This document shows, piece after piece, positions 11,305 to 20,563 of a stretch of DNA of 64,000 bases; positions within the stretch are counted from its first letter, which is position 1, and each line of letters begins with the position of its first letter. A model generated the notes under the pieces. It had not been told where the DNA came from and ran no database searches. It saw only the letters and a list, made by a program, of their open reading frames with translations. Both the position numbers and the translations under genes were made by a program. Source of the DNA: Haladaptatus sp. QDMS2 (lineage in GTDB: Archaea; Halobacteriota; Halobacteria; Halobacteriales; Halococcaceae). The stretch is from assembly GCF_029338295.1 (NCBI RefSeq), contig NZ_CP119791.1, forward strand, positions 930,001 through 994,000, written 5' to 3'.

Positions 11305-12075
11305 GTGACGAACACGCAGATAACGCTGATCCAAATCGACAACTACGGGCCCTGGACGGTCACGCCGGAACCACGCCGCGAAGTCGACCTCCAGACCCTC
11401 CAGTCGCGATTGTACGCCGACCTCTCACAACTGTTCGGGAACCGCGATGGCTACATCTTCTTCAGTCGCTTCGACAACATGATTGCCGTGAGCAATGGGC
11501 TCTCGATTGCGGACCACGCCCGGATTCAGGAGTCCGTGCGCAACCGCTACCCGGTGACTGTGAGCCTGAGCGTCGCGACGGGAACGACGCCGATTCAGGC
11601 GCTCGAAGACGCCACAAGTCAGTTACAGGAGGCGGGCAGCGCACAGGACAAGACGCGGACGGAAATCCTCCGGGGGCGCACCATCGACGAGGAGTTCCGA
11701 ACGACTGAGGACGTGCAACTCGCTCACTTCGACGTAAACGACGCGACGGGCCAGTACACGGACCGACTGAACGAATTTGACACGTTCATCAACATCGAGC
11801 AGGGCTACGCCGAACTGATGCGCTACATGCGCGAGGAAAACGGGGCGCTCTCGTTTTTCGTCGGTGGGGACAACATCATCGCCGTCTGTCCTGACATGGA
11901 CGAGGCAGCGTACCAGGGCGCAATCGACCACGTCCGCGAGGCCGTGAACGTCGAACTCAAGGTCGGTGTCGGCCGGGCGCGCTCTCCACAGGACGCTGGT
12001 ATGGCGGCAAAACACGCCCTCGAGACGTGCCGGGCCGTCGGGACGTCCGTCGAATTCGACTTCGAAACGGCGTAA
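11305..12075 (+). CDS. arfA: GTP cyclohydrolase III (GTP cyclohydrolase IIa)
   Basis: 256 residues from a GTG start. The protein is two tandem nucleotide-cyclase-like halves; the glycine-rich FFVGGDNIIAVCPDM (second half) and YIFFSRFDNMIAVSNGL (first half) are the repeated active-site strands typical of archaeal ArfA/MptA-unrelated GCH III. It opens GTP to a formylamino-pyrimidine, the first step of archaeal riboflavin and F420 chromophore synthesis. It stands alone between the peroxiredoxin and CBS genes. Confidence 0.93.
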   Translation: MTNTQITLIQIDNYGPWTVTPEPRREVDLQTLQSRLYADLSQLFGNRDGYIFFSRFDNMIAVSNGLSIADHARIQESVRNRYPVTVSLSVATGTTPIQALEDATSQLQEAGSAQDKTRTEILRGRTIDEEFRTTEDVQLAHFDVNDATGQYTDRLNEFDTFINIEQGYAELMRYMREENGALSFFVGGDNIIAVCPDMDEAAYQGAIDHVREAVNVELKVGVGRARSPQDAGMAAKHALETCRAVGTSVEFDFETA

Positions 12076-12150: not shown

Positions 12151-12699
12151 ATGGAAGATACCGTCACGATTCGGGATGTGATGACGCGCGAATTTATCGG
12201 GGTGAGTGAGTCCGATTCGGCCGTGAACACGGCACACCTCCTACGCGAAGAAGGGCAGGGCTGTGCCGTGGTACTCCGCGGACAAGAGGCAGTTGGGCTC
12301 GTTACCGAAGGCGACATGCTGGCGCTCTTTTTGAACGGCGCGAACCCGGAAAAGGCGACGGTCTCTGACGTGATGCATCCGGGCATCGTGACCGTCGGCG
12401 ACGATATGTCCCTCGAAGAAGCAGCCGGAATGCTCACTCGTGGCGATGCCGGCCGACTGGTGGTCTTAGAAAACGAGAAACCTGTCGGAATTGTCACTGA
12501 AAAAGACCTCGTCACGGCATCAATCCTCGGGCATCTCGGACTCTCCGAAGAAACTGAGATCGAACCGAACATATCAGAGGTTGACCAGCTCGATACGGAA
12601 TACTCGAATCAGAGCATCTGTGAGGTCTGTGGGTCGCTTACGCGCGATTTGGTAAACGTGAATGGCCAACTCGTTTGCACCGATTGTCGTGACATTTGA
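12151..12699 (+). CDS. CBS-domain pair protein with C-terminal zinc ribbon
   Basis: 182 residues. Two CBS motifs are visible: VMTREFIGVSESDSAVNTAHLL...VGLVTEGDM (residues ~10-65) and VMHPGIVTVGDDMSLEEAA...PVGIVTEKDL (~70-125). The tail has CEVCGSLTRDLVNVNGQLVC followed by TDC, a four-cysteine zinc ribbon. CBS pairs usually bind adenosyl nucleotides and report energy state, and the ribbon suggests binding to nucleic acid or protein. No fused effector enzyme is present and no partner gene is adjacent. Confidence 0.85.
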   Translation: MEDTVTIRDVMTREFIGVSESDSAVNTAHLLREEGQGCAVVLRGQEAVGLVTEGDMLALFLNGANPEKATVSDVMHPGIVTVGDDMSLEEAAGMLTRGDAGRLVVLENEKPVGIVTEKDLVTASILGHLGLSEETEIEPNISEVDQLDTEYSNQSICEVCGSLTRDLVNVNGQLVCTDCRDI

Positions 12700-12795: not shown

Positions 12796-14169
12796 ATGGC
12801 ACCAAATAACGAACGCCGTAAATTCCTCAAGGGACTCGGCGCAGCAGGGATTGCTGGATTGGCCGGCTGTATCGGCAGCCCAGGCGACGACGGAACGACG
12901 ACGACGGGTGATGGCGGTGGAAACGGAACCGGTACCACAGATGGTGGCGGTGGCAACGGTGGCGGCGATGGTGGCCCCGACATCATCACGGTCATTGGCT
13001 ATCCCGAATCCGGTATCCAACTGTTTCGTGACTACTACAACCTGAGCGATGGAAGTGAACAGATCCTCGTTCCCGACGGATTGCAATCGACCACGCTTCC
13101 GGACCAGGTCGGTAACGACATGGCGAACGTAACCGGGACGGCTCCCGCGGCGGGCGGTCCGAACCAGGAAGCGTTCAGCCAACTATTCCAGGACGAGTTC
13201 AACGCGGCACCGTCCGTGTTCACCTCTCAGTCGTACGACTCGGTCGCACTCCTCATTCTCGCGAACGTCGCTGCCGGCGAGAACAACGGCACGTCGATTC
13301 GCGACCAGATGCGCCGTGTTGCAAATCCGGAAGGTGAAGAGTTCGGTCCAGCGAACCTCTCGGAGGCAGTCGAGGCCGTTGCCGCAGGCGACGACATCAA
13401 CTACCAGGGTGCATCCTCTGCGACGAACTTCAACGAGCTGGGTGACCCAGCGTCCGCAGCCTACTCCATCTGGGAGTTCGACCGCGCGAACCAGACCACG
13501 CCCACGCTCGAAACGCAGAGCTTCGAGGGTGACAACCCAGAAGGCTCCGGCGCGATGGCCGACTCGGCCCCCGGCGGCACGGACCGCGAAGTAAAAGTCG
13601 GAATCCTCCTGCCCGAGACCGGTGACCTCGCGGCAGTCGGGCGACCGATGATCAGCGCAGCACGCCTCCCGGCACTGCAAATCAACGACGCGAACCCGGC
13701 TGGTATCTCCGTCGATGCACAGGTCGAAGACACGCAGACGTCGCCCGACTCCGGTGTCGCAGCGGCACAGTCGCTCGTCAACGCCGGCTACCCGGCCGTC
13801 TGTGGGTCCGCCTCGTCCGGTGTGAACGTCCCTGTCTCACAGCAGGTGTTCATCCCGAACCAGGTCGTCGGTTGCTCGCCGTCCTCGACGGCGCTGTCCG
13901 TCTCGAACCTGGACGACGACGACTACATCTTCCGGACGGCACCGTCCGACTTCCTGCAGGGCCGTGTCATGGCACAGGTCGCCTCCGAACGCCTCGGGGG
14001 AGCCTCCGCTGCGACGCTGTTCGTCAACAACGACTACGGCCAGCAGCTGTCCGACCGCTTCGCGGACGTCTTCGAGAGCCAGTTCGGCGGCACCATCACG
14101 AACAAGGTGGCGTTCAACATCGGCGAGTCCTCGTACACGTCGGTCATCGAGCAAGTCCTCGGTCAGTAA
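12796..14169 (+). CDS. Branched-chain amino acid-type ABC transporter substrate-binding lipoprotein, circularly permuted
   Basis: 457 residues. The N-terminus has a Tat motif (ERRKFLKGLG) and a lipobox (GLAGC, Cys25), then a Gly/Asp/Thr-rich linker to residue 60. The order of the Peripla_BP_6 domain is reversed. Residues 61-246 (PDIITVIGYPESGIQLFRDY onward) correspond to the usual C-terminal half. Residues 265-457 (VKVGILLPETGDLAAVGRPM onward, ending YTSVIEQVLGQ) correspond to the usual N-terminal half. The ancestral joint would read VLGQ|PDIITVIGY. Both halves look complete and the total length is normal, so the protein may still fold. The livHMGF permease genes are nearby on the other strand, beyond a lipoprotein gene; this gene has its own promoter. 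Confidence 0.87.
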   Translation: MAPNNERRKFLKGLGAAGIAGLAGCIGSPGDDGTTTTGDGGGNGTGTTDGGGGNGGGDGGPDIITVIGYPESGIQLFRDYYNLSDGSEQILVPDGLQSTTLPDQVGNDMANVTGTAPAAGGPNQEAFSQLFQDEFNAAPSVFTSQSYDSVALLILANVAAGENNGTSIRDQMRRVANPEGEEFGPANLSEAVEAVAAGDDINYQGASSATNFNELGDPASAAYSIWEFDRANQTTPTLETQSFEGDNPEGSGAMADSAPGGTDREVKVGILLPETGDLAAVGRPMISAARLPALQINDANPAGISVDAQVEDTQTSPDSGVAAAQSLVNAGYPAVCGSASSGVNVPVSQQVFIPNQVVGCSPSSTALSVSNLDDDDYIFRTAPSDFLQGRVMAQVASERLGGASAATLFVNNDYGQQLSDRFADVFESQFGGTITNKVAFNIGESSYTSVIEQVLGQ

Positions 14170-14217: not shown

Positions 14218-15063
14218 CTACGATTGATACGGCTTCACCGTCGTCGTCGCCTTCTCATCCCCGTCGCGCCAGAGCATGGTGTAGTGCATCTTCCTCCCTT
14301 CCGCAGACGACCCGAGCGACGGCGTGTACGGGTAGGACCACGTCGTTGTCGCCCCCGCTTTCACATCCAATGCCACCTTCTGCACCGGCGTGTAGGCGAC
14401 TTGCGGTCCGATTCGGTTGAGTGCGCCGACGAACGTGCCGTCCGTCGTGCCCGTATTTTCGACGATGAGAGTGAGCGTCACGTTCTCACCTGCTCGTACT
14501 GACTCGGGTGTCGTAAATTCGCGGACGGCGAAGTTCGTCGGGTCGGTGGCGAGTTGTGCAGTCGTTTCTTCGGAGAGCGGATGCACCTCGTCTCGCCACC
14601 GAATCGAAATTTCTTGTGACGCTACCGGTTTCGGCACTTGGAAAACCAGATACCCACCCGTGGACTGCTCGTACCTAGTGGACCGATACTCCCAGAGGGT
14701 CCCGACGTCCGACCCATAGCTGGTATCGAGCGCGCCAAACTCGTTTTCCGCTATTCTGAGGTTGAACTTACCACGTTCCAGCGGGTCGTCGGTTTCCGTT
14801 CGCACTCGGGCGATGACGAACTGTTGGTCTCGCTCGCCGACGACGCCGATGGAGTCGGGGGAATTCAGGCTCACCACTTCGGGAGTAACGTGAACGTCGG
14901 TGACGGTTACGCTGGGCGCGTCCGGTGTTTGCTGGGTCGTCCCGCTTGTCGTAGATTCGGGGCTTTCCGACCCGCTCGGTTGCGCGCTCGTGCAACCGGC
15001 GACGAACGCGAGGCCGAGGCCGCCGATTCGCAGCAGGTCGCGTCGCGTGGGGGAGGACATCAT
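14218..15063 (-). CDS. Tat-exported lipoprotein, function unknown
   Basis: 281 residues. The signal TRRDLLRIGGLGLAFVAGC holds the twin arginines and a lipobox with the lipidated Cys near residue 24, followed by a Ser/Thr/Pro-rich linker. The mature part is all-beta in character; residues ~180-260 (VRAGENVTLTLIVENTGTTD) look like a CARDB/adhesion-type beta sandwich. It lies just downstream of livF on the same strand and may be transcribed with it. There is no evidence that it binds substrate. Confidence 0.78.
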   Translation of the reverse strand: MMSSPTRRDLLRIGGLGLAFVAGCTSAQPSGSESPESTTSGTTQQTPDAPSVTVTDVHVTPEVVSLNSPDSIGVVGERDQQFVIARVRTETDDPLERGKFNLRIAENEFGALDTSYGSDVGTLWEYRSTRYEQSTGGYLVFQVPKPVASQEISIRWRDEVHPLSEETTAQLATDPTNFAVREFTTPESVRAGENVTLTLIVENTGTTDGTFVGALNRIGPQVAYTPVQKVALDVKAGATTTWSYPYTPSLGSSAEGRKMHYTMLWRDGDEKATTTVKPYQS

Positions 15064-15138: not shown

Positions 15139-15846
15139 TTAACCGCCGAGGAACTCCTGGCGCACTTCCTGGTCGCCGAGGAGCGCCTCGCCCGTGTCCA
15201 TGAAGCGGTTGCGGCCGTTCGCGAGCACGTAGCCGCGGTCACACCGCCGGAGGGCTTCTTTCGCGTTCTGTTCAACCATCATGATGGCCGTGCCAGCGTC
15301 GTTGATTTCGTCGATTTTGTCGAACATCTCCATTACGAGGTCCGGGGCGAGGCCCGCGGACGGCTCGTCGAGCAAGAGGAGTTCGGGTTCGAGCATGAGC
15401 GCCCGACCCATTGCGAGCATCTGGCGCTGACCACCGGACATCGTCCCCGCCTTCTGGTTCTTTCGCTCCTTGAGGATGGGAAAGCGTTCGTACACCGCGT
15501 TGAGGGCGTCCTGTGGGACCTCCTCTAAGATGTACGCGCCCATCTCCAGGTTCTCCTGAACCGTGAGCGTCGGGAAGATGTTCTCGTTCTGTGGGACGTA
15601 GCCGATGCCCTTGTGGATAATCTCCTCCGGTCGCAGTCCCGAAATCTCCTCGTCTTTGAACTCGACGCTCCCGCCCATGTGGGTGGTGAGCCCGAACACC
15701 GACTTCATCACCGTCGATTTGCCCGCGCCGTTCGGGCCGACGATGGTCACGTATTCGCTATTGCCGACTTCCATCTCCACGTCGTGGAGAATCTGGAGGT
15801 CCTTGCCGTAGCCGGCGTCCAAGTCGCGGACTTCGAGCAGGCTCAT
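15139..15846 (-). CDS. livF: Branched-chain amino acid ABC transporter, ATP-binding protein LivF
   Basis: 235 residues. Walker A is GPNGAGKST (about 37-45), the ABC signature is MSGGQRQMLAMGRALM, and Walker B is LLLLDEPSAGLAP, the form usual for LivF. It powers uptake through LivHM. Its start overlaps the livG stop by four bases (ATGA), and it is the last gene of the four-gene livHMGF operon. Confidence 0.95.
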   Translation of the reverse strand: MSLLEVRDLDAGYGKDLQILHDVEMEVGNSEYVTIVGPNGAGKSTVMKSVFGLTTHMGGSVEFKDEEISGLRPEEIIHKGIGYVPQNENIFPTLTVQENLEMGAYILEEVPQDALNAVYERFPILKERKNQKAGTMSGGQRQMLAMGRALMLEPELLLLDEPSAGLAPDLVMEMFDKIDEINDAGTAIMMVEQNAKEALRRCDRGYVLANGRNRFMDTGEALLGDQEVRQEFLGG

Positions 15847-16664
15847 ACGGTTCCTCCGAGGTAGGCTTCGATGACGTCCTCGTTCGCCTTTACCTCCTCC
15901 GGTGGGCCTTCAGTGAGCACCTTCCCCTGGTGCATCACGATGACGTGGGAGGTGTTGTTCATGATGAGGTCGATGTCGTGTTCGACGATGAGGAAGGTGT
16001 AGCCCTGCTCACGCAGTTCGTGAATGTGCTTGAGCAGGCGCTTTTCGAGCGACGGGTTGACCCCGGCGAACGGTTCGTCGAGCAGGAGCATGTCCGGGTC
16101 GGTGAGCAGCGCCCGCGCCATTTCGAGCAGTTTTCGCTGGCCACCAGAGAGGTTTCCAGCGTACTCCTCTGCGAGGTGGTCGATTTCGAAGAATTCGAGC
16201 ATGCCCCACGCGCGGTCGAGTAATTCTTCTTCCTGCTCGATGACCTCGTTTCGCGCGAACGGTAGCACAGAGCGCCAGAGCGCTTCGCCCTTCTGGTACT
16301 TTGGGGCGAGCATCATGTTCTCTAAGACGGTCATGTCCGCGAGCTCGCGGGCAATCTGGAAGGTGCGCACGAGGCCGCTGTTCGCGATTTCGTGGGCCGG
16401 ATGACCCGTGATGTCGCGTCCGTTGAAATGGACGGTGCCAGCGTCCGGCTTGTGCGTCCCCATGATGAGGTTGAACGTGGTGGACTTGCCAGCCCCGTTC
16501 GGCCCGATGAGGCCGGTCATCGTGCCGCGTTCGATTTTGAACGTGGCACCGTTTACTGCCTGAATACCGCCGAAGGACTTATACAGACCTTCGACTTCGA
16601 GGGGGTATTCGGTGAGGTCTGGGCCGTCTACTACCGGTTGTGCAACTTGTTCTGTGTCGCTCAT
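15843..16664 (-). CDS. livG: Branched-chain amino acid ABC transporter, ATP-binding protein LivG
   Basis: 273 residues. Walker A is GPNGAGKST (about 53-61), the signature is LSGGQRKLLEMARAL, and Walker B is MLLLDEPFAGVNP. The long insert after VLENMMLAPKYQ (WRSVLPFARNEVIEQEEELL) is characteristic of LivG rather than LivF. It overlaps livM and livF by four bases on each side. Confidence 0.95.
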   Translation of the reverse strand: MSDTEQVAQPVVDGPDLTEYPLEVEGLYKSFGGIQAVNGATFKIERGTMTGLIGPNGAGKSTTFNLIMGTHKPDAGTVHFNGRDITGHPAHEIANSGLVRTFQIARELADMTVLENMMLAPKYQKGEALWRSVLPFARNEVIEQEEELLDRAWGMLEFFEIDHLAEEYAGNLSGGQRKLLEMARALLTDPDMLLLDEPFAGVNPSLEKRLLKHIHELREQGYTFLIVEHDIDLIMNNTSHVIVMHQGKVLTEGPPEEVKANEDVIEAYLGGTV

Positions 16665-18004
16665 TGGTCGTCGCCTCCGTCGGTCACCGTCGGCTTCTTG
16701 GTCGTCTCAGGTCGCCCGAGGTCGATGCTCGCCGCAATCTCCTTGCGGTGGCCGAGCATTCCCTCGGGGCGGTTGTGCATCAGCCAGATGAGCACGAGGC
16801 CCATGAACACGAGCTGTAGCGTGTTGATGCTGTTCAGCGTGTAGATGATGAACGGCATCGGGTCGAAGTTCGAGAACAGCGGCCCGATGGCCTGCCCGAA
16901 GTTCGGCGGCCCGCGCTGTGGGATGTCGAGTGCCGTCTGCAGCAAGTTCTTCGCGTAGAGTGGTCCCTGGAACAGGAGCGCGGCGAACACCGCGCCGCCG
17001 AGGACGCTGCCGGTGTTCGACCCGGCACCGCCGATGATGAGCGCAATCCACACGTAGAACGTGATGCGCGGTAGGAAGAAGTTCGGCGTCACCGACCCCG
17101 ACCCCATCAGCCAGAGGATGCCGCCGAGGCCGATGAGCGCACACCCGAGCATGAAGGACTTAATCTTGAACCGATTGGTGTTCTTCCCGAGTGCGTTTGC
17201 TGCGTCTTCGTCCTCGCGAATCGCCTTGAGGACACGCCCGAACGGTGACTCACCAGTCCGCTTCATGAGCCAGTAGAACATGCCCACGAACAGGAGCAAC
17301 ATCAGGCCGTAGGCGAAGTTGTCCACGACCGGTTTCGGATTGTCGGGGATGATCGTGCCGAACACAGAGACGATTCCGAGGTAGATGTCCCAGAGGAACA
17401 CCGTCTCGAGAAACGCCTGAAGCGGGTCGGTGAAGTTGAGGATGAGGCCGCTGCCGCCACCCGTCCCCGTGGTCAGTCCAAACAGGGTGAACTTCTGGAA
17501 GGTTCCAGAGAGGTAGGCAAAGCGGATGATTTCTGAGAACGCAATCGTCACGATTGCAAAGTAGTCAGCACGGAGTTTCAGCGCCGGCAACGCGACGACG
17601 AAGCCGAAGATGGCCGCCGCCGCCATGCCTGCGAGGATGCCGACCCAGATGGGAAGCCCCAGTCCGGGGGTAAGCGACGACCCCGCCTGCACGGTCGCCG
17701 GTTTCGAGACCATCGCCATCGTGTAAATCGCGATGGCCATGAAGCCCGCGATGCCGATGTTGAACAGTCCGGTGTACCCCCAGTGGAGGTTGAGCGCGAG
17801 CGCCAGCAGCGCGAAGACGCCGATGTAGAACGTTAGGTTGGCGATGGCGTTAATCTGCCCGCGAACCGGATTTCCGAGCAATATCCCGCTGATGATGTAG
17901 GCGAGATAGATGAGCCCGAAGACTGCCGCGACCTTGACGATGTCGCGCTCCCAGAGCTCTGCGAGTGCTGCCTTCTCGTTGTCGATGATGTCTTTTCCGC
18001 TCAT
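16661..18004 (-). CDS. livM: Branched-chain amino acid ABC transporter, permease LivM
   Basis: 447 residues from ATG 18004; a longer in-frame extension exists but is arginine-rich shadow sequence overlapping livH. There are about nine to ten membrane segments. The LivM-type signature is GVLGRVLKAIREDEDAAN-like (here SPFGRVLKAIREDEDAANAL), which contacts the ATPases. LHWGYTGLFNIGIAGFMAI is also typical of LivM. Its start overlaps the livH stop. Confidence 0.94.
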   Translation of the reverse strand: MSGKDIIDNEKAALAELWERDIVKVAAVFGLIYLAYIISGILLGNPVRGQINAIANLTFYIGVFALLALALNLHWGYTGLFNIGIAGFMAIAIYTMAMVSKPATVQAGSSLTPGLGLPIWVGILAGMAAAAIFGFVVALPALKLRADYFAIVTIAFSEIIRFAYLSGTFQKFTLFGLTTGTGGGSGLILNFTDPLQAFLETVFLWDIYLGIVSVFGTIIPDNPKPVVDNFAYGLMLLLFVGMFYWLMKRTGESPFGRVLKAIREDEDAANALGKNTNRFKIKSFMLGCALIGLGGILWLMGSGSVTPNFFLPRITFYVWIALIIGGAGSNTGSVLGGAVFAALLFQGPLYAKNLLQTALDIPQRGPPNFGQAIGPLFSNFDPMPFIIYTLNSINTLQLVFMGLVLIWLMHNRPEGMLGHRKEIAASIDLGRPETTKKPTVTDGGDDQ

Positions 18005-19113
18005 GCCGTTGCCCTCCCGCTGAACAGGCCGCTTGGCTTGAACAGCAAGACCAGGATCATCACGATGAACGCGGCCGCCCGGGCGAACTCGGACGGAATC
18101 CAGATGACGGAGACGGACGCCGCGAGGCCGATGACGAGGCCACCGGCGATTGCGCCGTACACCGAACCGATGCCGCCGAGGATGACTGCGGCGAAGATGA
18201 GCAGCAACAGCAGCCACCCGTCGTTGAAGCTAATAGTCCCCTTCCAGAGGATGAAGACGTAGCCAGCGACGCCGGTGAGACCGCCGCCGATAATCCAGGT
18301 CGCCCGAATGACTTCCTCTGTCGGGATTCCCGTAATCCGTGCGAGGTCTTTATTGTCAGCCATCGCACGCATTGCCTTGCCCAGCTTCGTTCGCTGGAGC
18401 AGCAAGTGGACGCCGAGCATCAGTCCGACGCTCGCGACGACCAGTGTGACGTCGTGCGCGGTGATTTTGACCGCCCCGTCGACGAAGTACGGGGCAAATT
18501 CCGGCACGTTGCCGGCGTCAGTCGTTCCGCGCACGTCCGAGGTGAACACGAACAGTATGAGGTAGCGAATCGCGAAGGCCACCCCGATGCTCGTGATGAG
18601 CAAGGCGATGCCTTCTTCTGCTCGCATTGGCCGGTAGACGAAACGGTCGATTAATAGGGCGAGCGCTACCGAAAAGACGCCCGCGACGACCATCCCGATG
18701 ATGATGGCGAGCGGTGTCGCCGTGATGCCGATGCCGAGCGCCCCGCCGAACACGGAGCCACCCGCACCGACGAGGACGAGCGAGCCAATGTCTCTCGTGC
18801 CGAATCCGGCGATGACGTACGTCGTCGCCCAGCCGGCAAACGCGCCGCTCGTGATGTAATCACCGTGTGCGAAGTTTGCGAAGTTCAAAATGCTGTACGT
18901 CATCGAGAGGCCGATACCGGCGAGCCCGATGACGAGACCCTGCATGAGGCCGTCCCATACGAGGGTCCCAACCCGTGAAAATTGGATTCGACCCGTCGCC
19001 AGTCCATCGAGGAGGTCGATGATCATGAGGACGAAAACGAATCCGACCAGTAGCGCGAACGGTTGCTCTATGACAAACCGCCGTCCACGCGTGTAAGTTT
19101 CTGCTATACCCAT
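18001..19113 (-). CDS. livH: Branched-chain amino acid ABC transporter, permease LivH
   Basis: 370 residues, longer than many LivH proteins because of an N-terminal segment with one extra hydrophobic stretch. Family landmarks are GLAGIGLSMTYSILNFANFAHGD, KLGKAMRAMADNKDLARITG and FAAVILGGIGSVYGAIAGGLV. It is the first gene of the operon livHMGF. The start ATG at 19113 lies about 30 bases downstream of a TATA-like element. Confidence 0.94.
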   Translation of the reverse strand: MGIAETYTRGRRFVIEQPFALLVGFVFVLMIIDLLDGLATGRIQFSRVGTLVWDGLMQGLVIGLAGIGLSMTYSILNFANFAHGDYITSGAFAGWATTYVIAGFGTRDIGSLVLVGAGGSVFGGALGIGITATPLAIIIGMVVAGVFSVALALLIDRFVYRPMRAEEGIALLITSIGVAFAIRYLILFVFTSDVRGTTDAGNVPEFAPYFVDGAVKITAHDVTLVVASVGLMLGVHLLLQRTKLGKAMRAMADNKDLARITGIPTEEVIRATWIIGGGLTGVAGYVFILWKGTISFNDGWLLLLLIFAAVILGGIGSVYGAIAGGLVIGLAASVSVIWIPSEFARAAAFIVMILVLLFKPSGLFSGRATA

Positions 19114-19366: not shown

Positions 19367-20563
19367 ATGATTCAGACCCTCGACGACCTCTCCGTGGACG
19401 GAACCACGATTGGGGTGCGCGTCGACGTCAACAGTCCGCTCTCAGACGATGGCTCTCTCGCAGACGACGCGCGCATCCGGGCGCACGTGGACACTCTCTC
19501 TGAACTTCTCTCTCGCGGTGGGCGCGTCGTCATTCTCGCCCATCAGGGCAGACCGGGCGGTGAGGACTTCTCCGGGCTCGAACCACACGCAGAACGCTTG
19601 AACGAACTCCTCGACTTTCCCATCTCCTACTGTGACGGCAACTTTTCGGAGAACGCGCGCGACGCAATCCGGGCACTCGAAAACGGCGAGGGCGTCCTCC
19701 TCGAAAACACGCGCTTCTACAGCGAGGAGTACATGGAGTTCGACCCCGAGGTTGCCGGGCAGACCCACCTCGTCGACCGACTCGTCCCCGTCCTCGACGC
19801 GTTCGTGAACGACGCCTTCGCGGCCGCCCACCGCTCGCAACCCTCGCTCGTCGGATTCGCGACGCGCCTGCCCGCCTATGCGGGCCGCGTCATGGAGCGC
19901 GAAATCGACGTGCTCGGCGACATCGAGAGCGCCCCCACACCCCGAGTGTACGCCGTCGGCGGCGCGAAGGTGAACGACTCCATCGACGTCGCAGAGAGCG
20001 TCCTCGAACGCGACCTCGCCGACACGGTGCTCACCACGGGCGTCGTCGGGAACGTCTTCCTCATCGCAAACGGCATCGAACTCGGCAAGGCGAGTTCCGA
20101 GTTCATCTTAGACGAAGGGTACTGGGACGAAGTCGACCGCGCCGGCCGATTGCTCGATACCTACGGGCACAAAATCGTCCTCCCACGGGACGTGGCCGTT
20201 GAACGCGACGGCGAACGGGTCGAGATTCCACTCGCGGACCTCCCGGCAGGAGACGACGAACCAGCCCTCGACATCGGGACGCGCACGGTTGACCTCTACA
20301 GCGACATCATGGCGAACGCTGGAACGGTGATTCTGAACGGGCCGGCGGGCGTCTTCGAGATGGAGCAGTTCGCCGTTGGGACGAAGGGAATCTACAACGC
20401 GGCGACCGAAGCCGAAAACAGCATCGTCGGCGGCGGTGACACGGCAGCGGCCCTCAGACGACTCGGTATCGAGGGCTTCACCCACGTGAGCACCGGGGGC
20501 GGCGCGGCGCTCAAGATGTTGACCGGCGAACCACTGCCCGCCATCGAGGCGCTCGAACGCTGA
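19367..20563 (+). CDS. pgk: Phosphoglycerate kinase
   Basis: 398 residues. It transfers phosphate between 1,3-bisphosphoglycerate and ADP. Visible motifs are VRVDVNSPLSDDG (substrate-binding), ILAHQGRPGG, LLENTRFY, DAFAAAHRSQPSLVGF and the C-terminal nucleotide-binding NGPAGVFEMEQFAVGTKGI and GGGDTAAALRRLG...HVSTGGGAAL. The DSFSTAHR-like motif reads DAFAAAHR, an archaeal variant. Its last base is shared with the next start (TGATGG), so the acetyltransferase is probably co-translated. Confidence 0.96.
   Translation: MIQTLDDLSVDGTTIGVRVDVNSPLSDDGSLADDARIRAHVDTLSELLSRGGRVVILAHQGRPGGEDFSGLEPHAERLNELLDFPISYCDGNFSENARDAIRALENGEGVLLENTRFYSEEYMEFDPEVAGQTHLVDRLVPVLDAFVNDAFAAAHRSQPSLVGFATRLPAYAGRVMEREIDVLGDIESAPTPRVYAVGGAKVNDSIDVAESVLERDLADTVLTTGVVGNVFLIANGIELGKASSEFILDEGYWDEVDRAGRLLDTYGHKIVLPRDVAVERDGERVEIPLADLPAGDDEPALDIGTRTVDLYSDIMANAGTVILNGPAGVFEMEQFAVGTKGIYNAATEAENSIVGGGDTAAALRRLGIEGFTHVSTGGGAALKMLTGEPLPAIEALER

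Follow-up and report, generated by a model that had tools for sequence, protein, structure and literature searches.

Organization of the locus

Can the substrate-binding protein of an ABC importer be encoded with its two halves exchanged and still be a working subunit, and how would such a gene have arisen? This question is raised by the ORF at positions 12796-14169 (+) of the window, the 64,000-nucleotide stretch of Haladaptatus sp. QDMS2 analysed here. A first-pass annotation, correct in its coordinates, frame and landmarks for this ORF, had read it as a circularly permuted Liv-type (Peripla_BP_6) binding protein.

The ORF encodes a Tat/lipobox lipoprotein of 457 aa, for which profile and homologue matches give the segment order designated CP1. 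A twin-arginine signal followed by the lipobox cysteine Cys25 (ERRKFLKG...GLAGC25, 12796..12870, +) is retained at the new N-terminus; TIGR01409 matches with 18.8 bits (cut-off 16.7), while the TAT_signal match is weak. A Gly/Asp/Thr-rich tether comes next (residues 26-60, 12871..12975, +), which is predicted to be disordered and has an AF2 pLDDT below 50. The canonical second half, corresponding to Peripla_BP_6 from position 191 onwards, now stands first (residues 61-246, 12976..13533, +), as indicated by profile, synteny and PDB matches. It is connected by a new linker, running between the former C- and N-termini (residues 247-263, 13534..13584, +) and recognized from linker comparison and a dN/dS of 0.7-1.0, to the canonical first half (Peripla_BP_6 positions 1-186; residues 264-457, 13585..14166, +). 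This last part, supported by profile, synteny, AF2 and structure overlay, terminates within an alpha-beta loop of lobe II.

The permuted gene lies beside a complete livFGMH set, as in Liv-HAAT systems encoded with LivHMGF. Profiles and neighbourhood identify a LivF-type ATPase, convergent with the binding-protein gene (15139..15846, -), a LivG-type ATPase (BCA_ABC_TP_C; 15843..16664, -) and a LivH-type permease (18001..19113, -). The LivM-type permease, found by profile, was placed at 16661..18004 (-), with its putative start at the internal ATG that follows the stop of LivH; the longest livM ORF (16661-18217, -) overlaps livH by about 216 bp, and the likely ATG at 18004 leaves a 4-bp overlap with the livH stop. 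No second binding-protein gene was seen in the livFGMH cluster of the window. Three neighbours serve as syntenic markers: GTP cyclohydrolase III (11305..12075, +), which lies 5' of canonical and permuted genes alike, a CBS-pair protein (12151..12699, +), and phosphoglycerate kinase behind livH (19367..20563, +). A small Tat/lipobox lipoprotein gene (14218-15063, -) is located between the binding-protein gene and livF; its product has no Pfam match and a weak choice-of-anchor D match. This gene looks inserted, because the binding-protein gene and livF are just about 190 bp apart in the congener G001 (L101).

Order of the two halves

The canonical N-to-C segment order of Peripla_BP_6/Liv-HAAT proteins is not the order of the window protein. 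PF13458 recognizes the natural chain with 110.1 bits (cut-off 31.7) in two reversed stretches, residues 61-175 corresponding to profile positions 191-311 and residues 265-454 to positions 1-186. The second-half segment thus begins the mature protein at residue 61 and the normal first half comes last, exactly as the first-pass annotation had described. When the halves were exchanged, the same letters scored 123 bits in a single stretch, so that re-ordering heals the two matches into one. In the same way, phmmer searches against the PDB split the natural chain into two reversed stretches, whereas the re-ordered chain was matched from end to end in one (3td9, 5e-16; 4gnr, 2e-15; 1usg, 5e-7). A chance order is excluded by these E-values and by more than 50 homologues in the identical order. 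The protein descends from the Peripla_BP_6 family and should work as its members do, but as a permuted variant. These matches also carry a warning, since profile annotation splits permuted proteins silently.

An AF2 model of the window protein, built from 20 CP1 sequences, had a pTM of 0.76 and a well predicted core, but two stretches were of low confidence (residues 339-355 and 365-376). In this model, residues 264-457 superpose on residues 1-192 of Liv proteins (Z about 10, rmsd 2.5-3 Å), for example on those of 3ip5 (Z 10.7, rmsd 2.6 Å over 184 residues). Foldseek and VIA align in sequence order, so the permuted chain was matched by halves; the structural check proposed by the first-pass annotation consequently bears on the canonical first half, the other half not being listed separately. 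VIA matches that covered the full length in a different register (5er3, rmsd 5.2 Å) were set aside. Both new termini are found in the alpha-beta loop of lobe II that precedes the 'PDIITVIGY' strand. From the usual geometry of such folds, they would be on the face away from the cleft.

Distribution, selection and synteny

One search returned collinear full-length homologues with 51-86% identity, and in another a full-length collinear permuted homologue was present in about 160 of 392 haloarchaeal genomes (about 40% of the sample; a hand count of best matches with E <1e-95, half-only matches of canonical-order proteins lying near 1e-55 to 1e-70). The named genera include Haloferax, Halobellus, Haloquadratum, Halorubrum, Haladaptatus and Halomicrococcus. 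The permuted order is a widespread haloarchaeal form and not a peculiarity of the Haladaptatus sp. QDMS2 genome. Every solved relative that was matched has the canonical order. Against three relatives, dN/dS was 0.09-0.19 in both halves and 0.74-0.99 in the linker. Purifying selection acts on both halves, while the new linker evolves almost neutrally, a pattern which fits a functional protein with a flexible linker joining its halves.

The first-pass annotation had named one order across all homologues as the outcome that would speak against its reading. Instead, homologues in canonical order, with 45-61% identity, are found at the same locus and are about as common as the permuted ones; a canonical query matched 180 of the 392 genomes at E <= 1e-70. 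Canonical, once-permuted (CP1) and twice-permuted (CP2) genes share one slot, udk - GTP cyclohydrolase III - CBS - binding protein, convergent with livFGMH - pgk, and the permutation therefore took place in situ rather than being imported with a foreign locus. Its presence in many genera, the selection on it and the locus common with canonical homologues support the proposal of a natural circular permutant that kept its export signal.

Several individual genes deserve mention. The canonical homologue of G096 (L092 3676-4938, -) is 61% identical to the window protein in its N-half and 45% in its C-half, reflecting either uneven divergence or recombination between halves. Two permuted genes show an assembly gap or frameshift, one with a run of undetermined bases (L047 6001-7770) and one with an apparently altered 3' end (L063 6001-7821). 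The second copies of tandem pairs in Haladaptatus and a single copy in Halomicrococcus are permuted and have a Tat-like signal without the lipobox Cys (e.g. GLMGTLQQD); such copies (L051 6001-7284, L052 7478-8761, L053 6001-7272, L055 6001-7272 and L057 6001-7284) may, to judge from their signals, be released rather than anchored.

Number of origins and second permutation

All proteins were put into canonical order before trees of 88 rows and 55 rows were built. In both trees, the CP1 proteins formed four groups (main, G36, G96 and G181) with canonical genes between them, and the groups obtained from the N-half or the C-half only were identical to those of the whole-protein tree. The tree of livFGMH, genes without any permutation, gave nearly the same picture, with G96 and G181 near each other beside canonical genes.

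Genes of three genomes have been permuted a second time (CP2: L058 51-1412; L059 1969-3390; L165 1471-2832, -). Their order is N43-192, C, linker, N1-35 in L058 and L059, and N39-192, C, linker, N1-37 in L165; the N-C junction is seamless again, and the CP1 linker FEG..P.G.G.SAD.MPG is kept. The CP2 genes nest inside the main CP1 clade. Since L165 is sister to the CP1 gene L056 (support 100/100, 88-row tree) and CP2 rows as one clade are rejected (AU p 1.7e-4), the simpler account is that CP2 arose twice, the alternative being one origin with reversals. The strand order suggests that CP2 moves the N-terminus and the tether back to lobe I. The description of CP2 is drawn from sequence, because its AF2 model, built from two sequences, failed (pLDDT 28.6).

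Did the scattered CP1 groups nevertheless come from one event in an early haloarchaeon, followed by horizontal transfer, by gene conversion with the canonical genes already present, or by reversion? All CP1 groups are cut at one loop (between YTS..EQAL and PD..VIGYP), with a breakpoint common to within a few residues, and the linkers of three groups look alike (DSIPG..DRT, EP.G.GS.SGRT), as such an event would leave them. The linker of G36 differs, however, and all four trees (whole protein, N-half, C-half and livFGMH) place a canonical gene as the sister of this group. For the binding protein, AU tests (55 rows) point in both directions. They kept main+G96 (p 0.11), main+G181 (p 0.185) and main+G96+G181 (p 0.076) as clades, but rejected a single clade of all permuted genes (p 0.0105), as well as main+G36 (p 0.044) and G36+G96 (p 0.020), where p values near 0.05 are weak because the groups were named after the trees had been seen. 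With livFGMH, a single clade is rejected for all carriers (p 5e-38) and also for just main+G96+G181 (p 2e-6), and on the 55-row tree a single gain would have to be followed by about eight exact reversions. A single origin is therefore considered the less probable account, though one to be reckoned with. The re-ordered alignments indicate that the permutation probably arose more than once; at least two origins are likely, and three or four are possible. The chances are about even that at least three independent permutations at one alpha-beta loop, followed by CP2 (once or twice) at a second loop, make this a natural hot spot with its canonical sisters extant.

Function and route of origin

The order, conservation, selection, synteny and phylogeny described above are best explained by a permuted-in-place, working, membrane-anchored binding subunit of the adjacent LivHMGF-type importer, a reading that we hold with high confidence. 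That the subunit works is read from the complete livFGMH set beside it and from Asp94, which is invariant and aligns with the Asp/Glu-Gly of solved Liv proteins. With the old N- and C-termini joined via a flexible linker of about 17 residues, the chain would adopt the usual two-lobed fold of type I binding proteins and close around a small ligand, which is probably an amino acid or amide, before handing it over to LivH/LivM. The main physical change would be that the lipid tether pulls lobe II, not lobe I.

Most likely, a canonical gene at this locus was duplicated in tandem, the copies were fused in frame and the outer halves were trimmed away; the first-pass annotation had likewise supposed a tandem duplication with loss of the outer halves. 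Tandem CP1 gene pairs do exist in Haladaptatus, a ready substrate for further permutation, and CP2 is the product expected from trimming a fused tandem at other points, which fits a second round. Among some 160 distinct proteins classified, none was a fused double-length form or a full N-C-N intermediate, and tblastn with both halves revealed no relic second halves beside canonical genes, so that for the duplication step itself we infer rather than observe. Long alignments through stop codons that hinted at relic halves (e.g. G063 60-301) proved to be alignment padding.

The missing duplicated intermediate would also be expected if the halves had become separate genes and were re-fused in the opposite order, a route that leads to an identical end product. 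Such fission and fusion is nevertheless improbable: whole-gene tandem copies are seen while separately encoded halves are not at the loci examined, and the trimming of a tandem fusion would readily give the CP2 order (N43-192, C, linker, N1-35). Tandem copies of the binding-protein gene in some genomes could equally recall the artefact that had been raised beforehand, two adjacent canonical genes mis-joined in assembly or annotation. Order and junction are identical in dozens of independent assemblies, closed chromosomes included, so that relatives with the same junction were indeed found where the first-pass annotation had proposed to search; both halves are under selection, and the genome itself has no second copy of either half next to the gene. 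The artefact was rejected on the conserved junction and can practically be dismissed. A further proposal, compatible with duplication in place, concerns the spread of the permuted form: moving the anchor from lobe I to lobe II might aid tethered binding proteins. It agrees with the seemingly repeated gain of the permuted form at a single loop in a family that consists entirely of lipoproteins, and TpMglB-2 of Treponema pallidum, like most of its permuted homologues, is probably tethered as well (PMC4990184). An advantage of this kind is doubtful, as CP2 appears to return the N-terminus to lobe I, canonical tethered homologues are common, and the second Haladaptatus copies are permuted yet without the lipobox Cys.

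Comparison with known permuted proteins

Natural circular permutants are usually ancient pairs, compared over large distances. Here canonical, once- and twice-permuted versions, 45-75% identical, occupy one locus in related archaea, some of which can be cultivated, and this family lets the how and the why of protein circular permutation be studied. The Liv/HAAT proteins themselves (PF13458; 3td9, 4gnr, 1usg) are homologous to the window protein end to end after re-ordering and likewise adjoin livHMGF, but differ in their canonical order.

In the searchable literature, from which subscription journals were mostly absent, no haloarchaeal or Liv permutant was found, and TpMglB-2 (Tp0684) was the only natural permuted binding protein. 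It is a sugar-binding lipoprotein designated 'Type Ic', in which the first three N-lobe strands have moved to the C-terminus and the permuted part is 13% identical to its counterpart; its authors suggested that tethering may favour permutation (PMC4990184). Both are natural permutations of a lipid-anchored type I protein with an ABC importer, and in both the homologues share the permuted order. The window protein falls under 'Type Ic' in the sense of a type I binding lipoprotein with a natural circular permutation (PMC4990184), but lacks the N-lobe break, CP1 sending the whole first ~190 residues to the C-terminus and CP2 about the first 35. TpMglB-2 belongs to the bacterial MglB family, whereas the window protein is an archaeal Liv/Peripla_BP_6 protein broken in lobe II, and its halves are 45-60% identical to extant canonical homologues at one locus. 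The haloarchaeal case differs from TpMglB-2 in several respects: the family and domain of life, the place of the break, the homology that has been preserved, the locus shared with canonical sisters, the apparent recurrence and the second permutation.

The pieces of the type I fold tolerate permutation, as reported for Thermotoga maritima ribose-binding protein, the halves of which were permuted in a laboratory construct, not a natural gene (PMC9815098). Saposin/swaposin and DNA methyltransferases are natural permutants generally explained by permutation by duplication (PMC3320104). They resemble the present case in being permuted at the gene level; in contrast to them, canonical sisters, several permuted groups and two breakpoints are found here in one syntenic locus.
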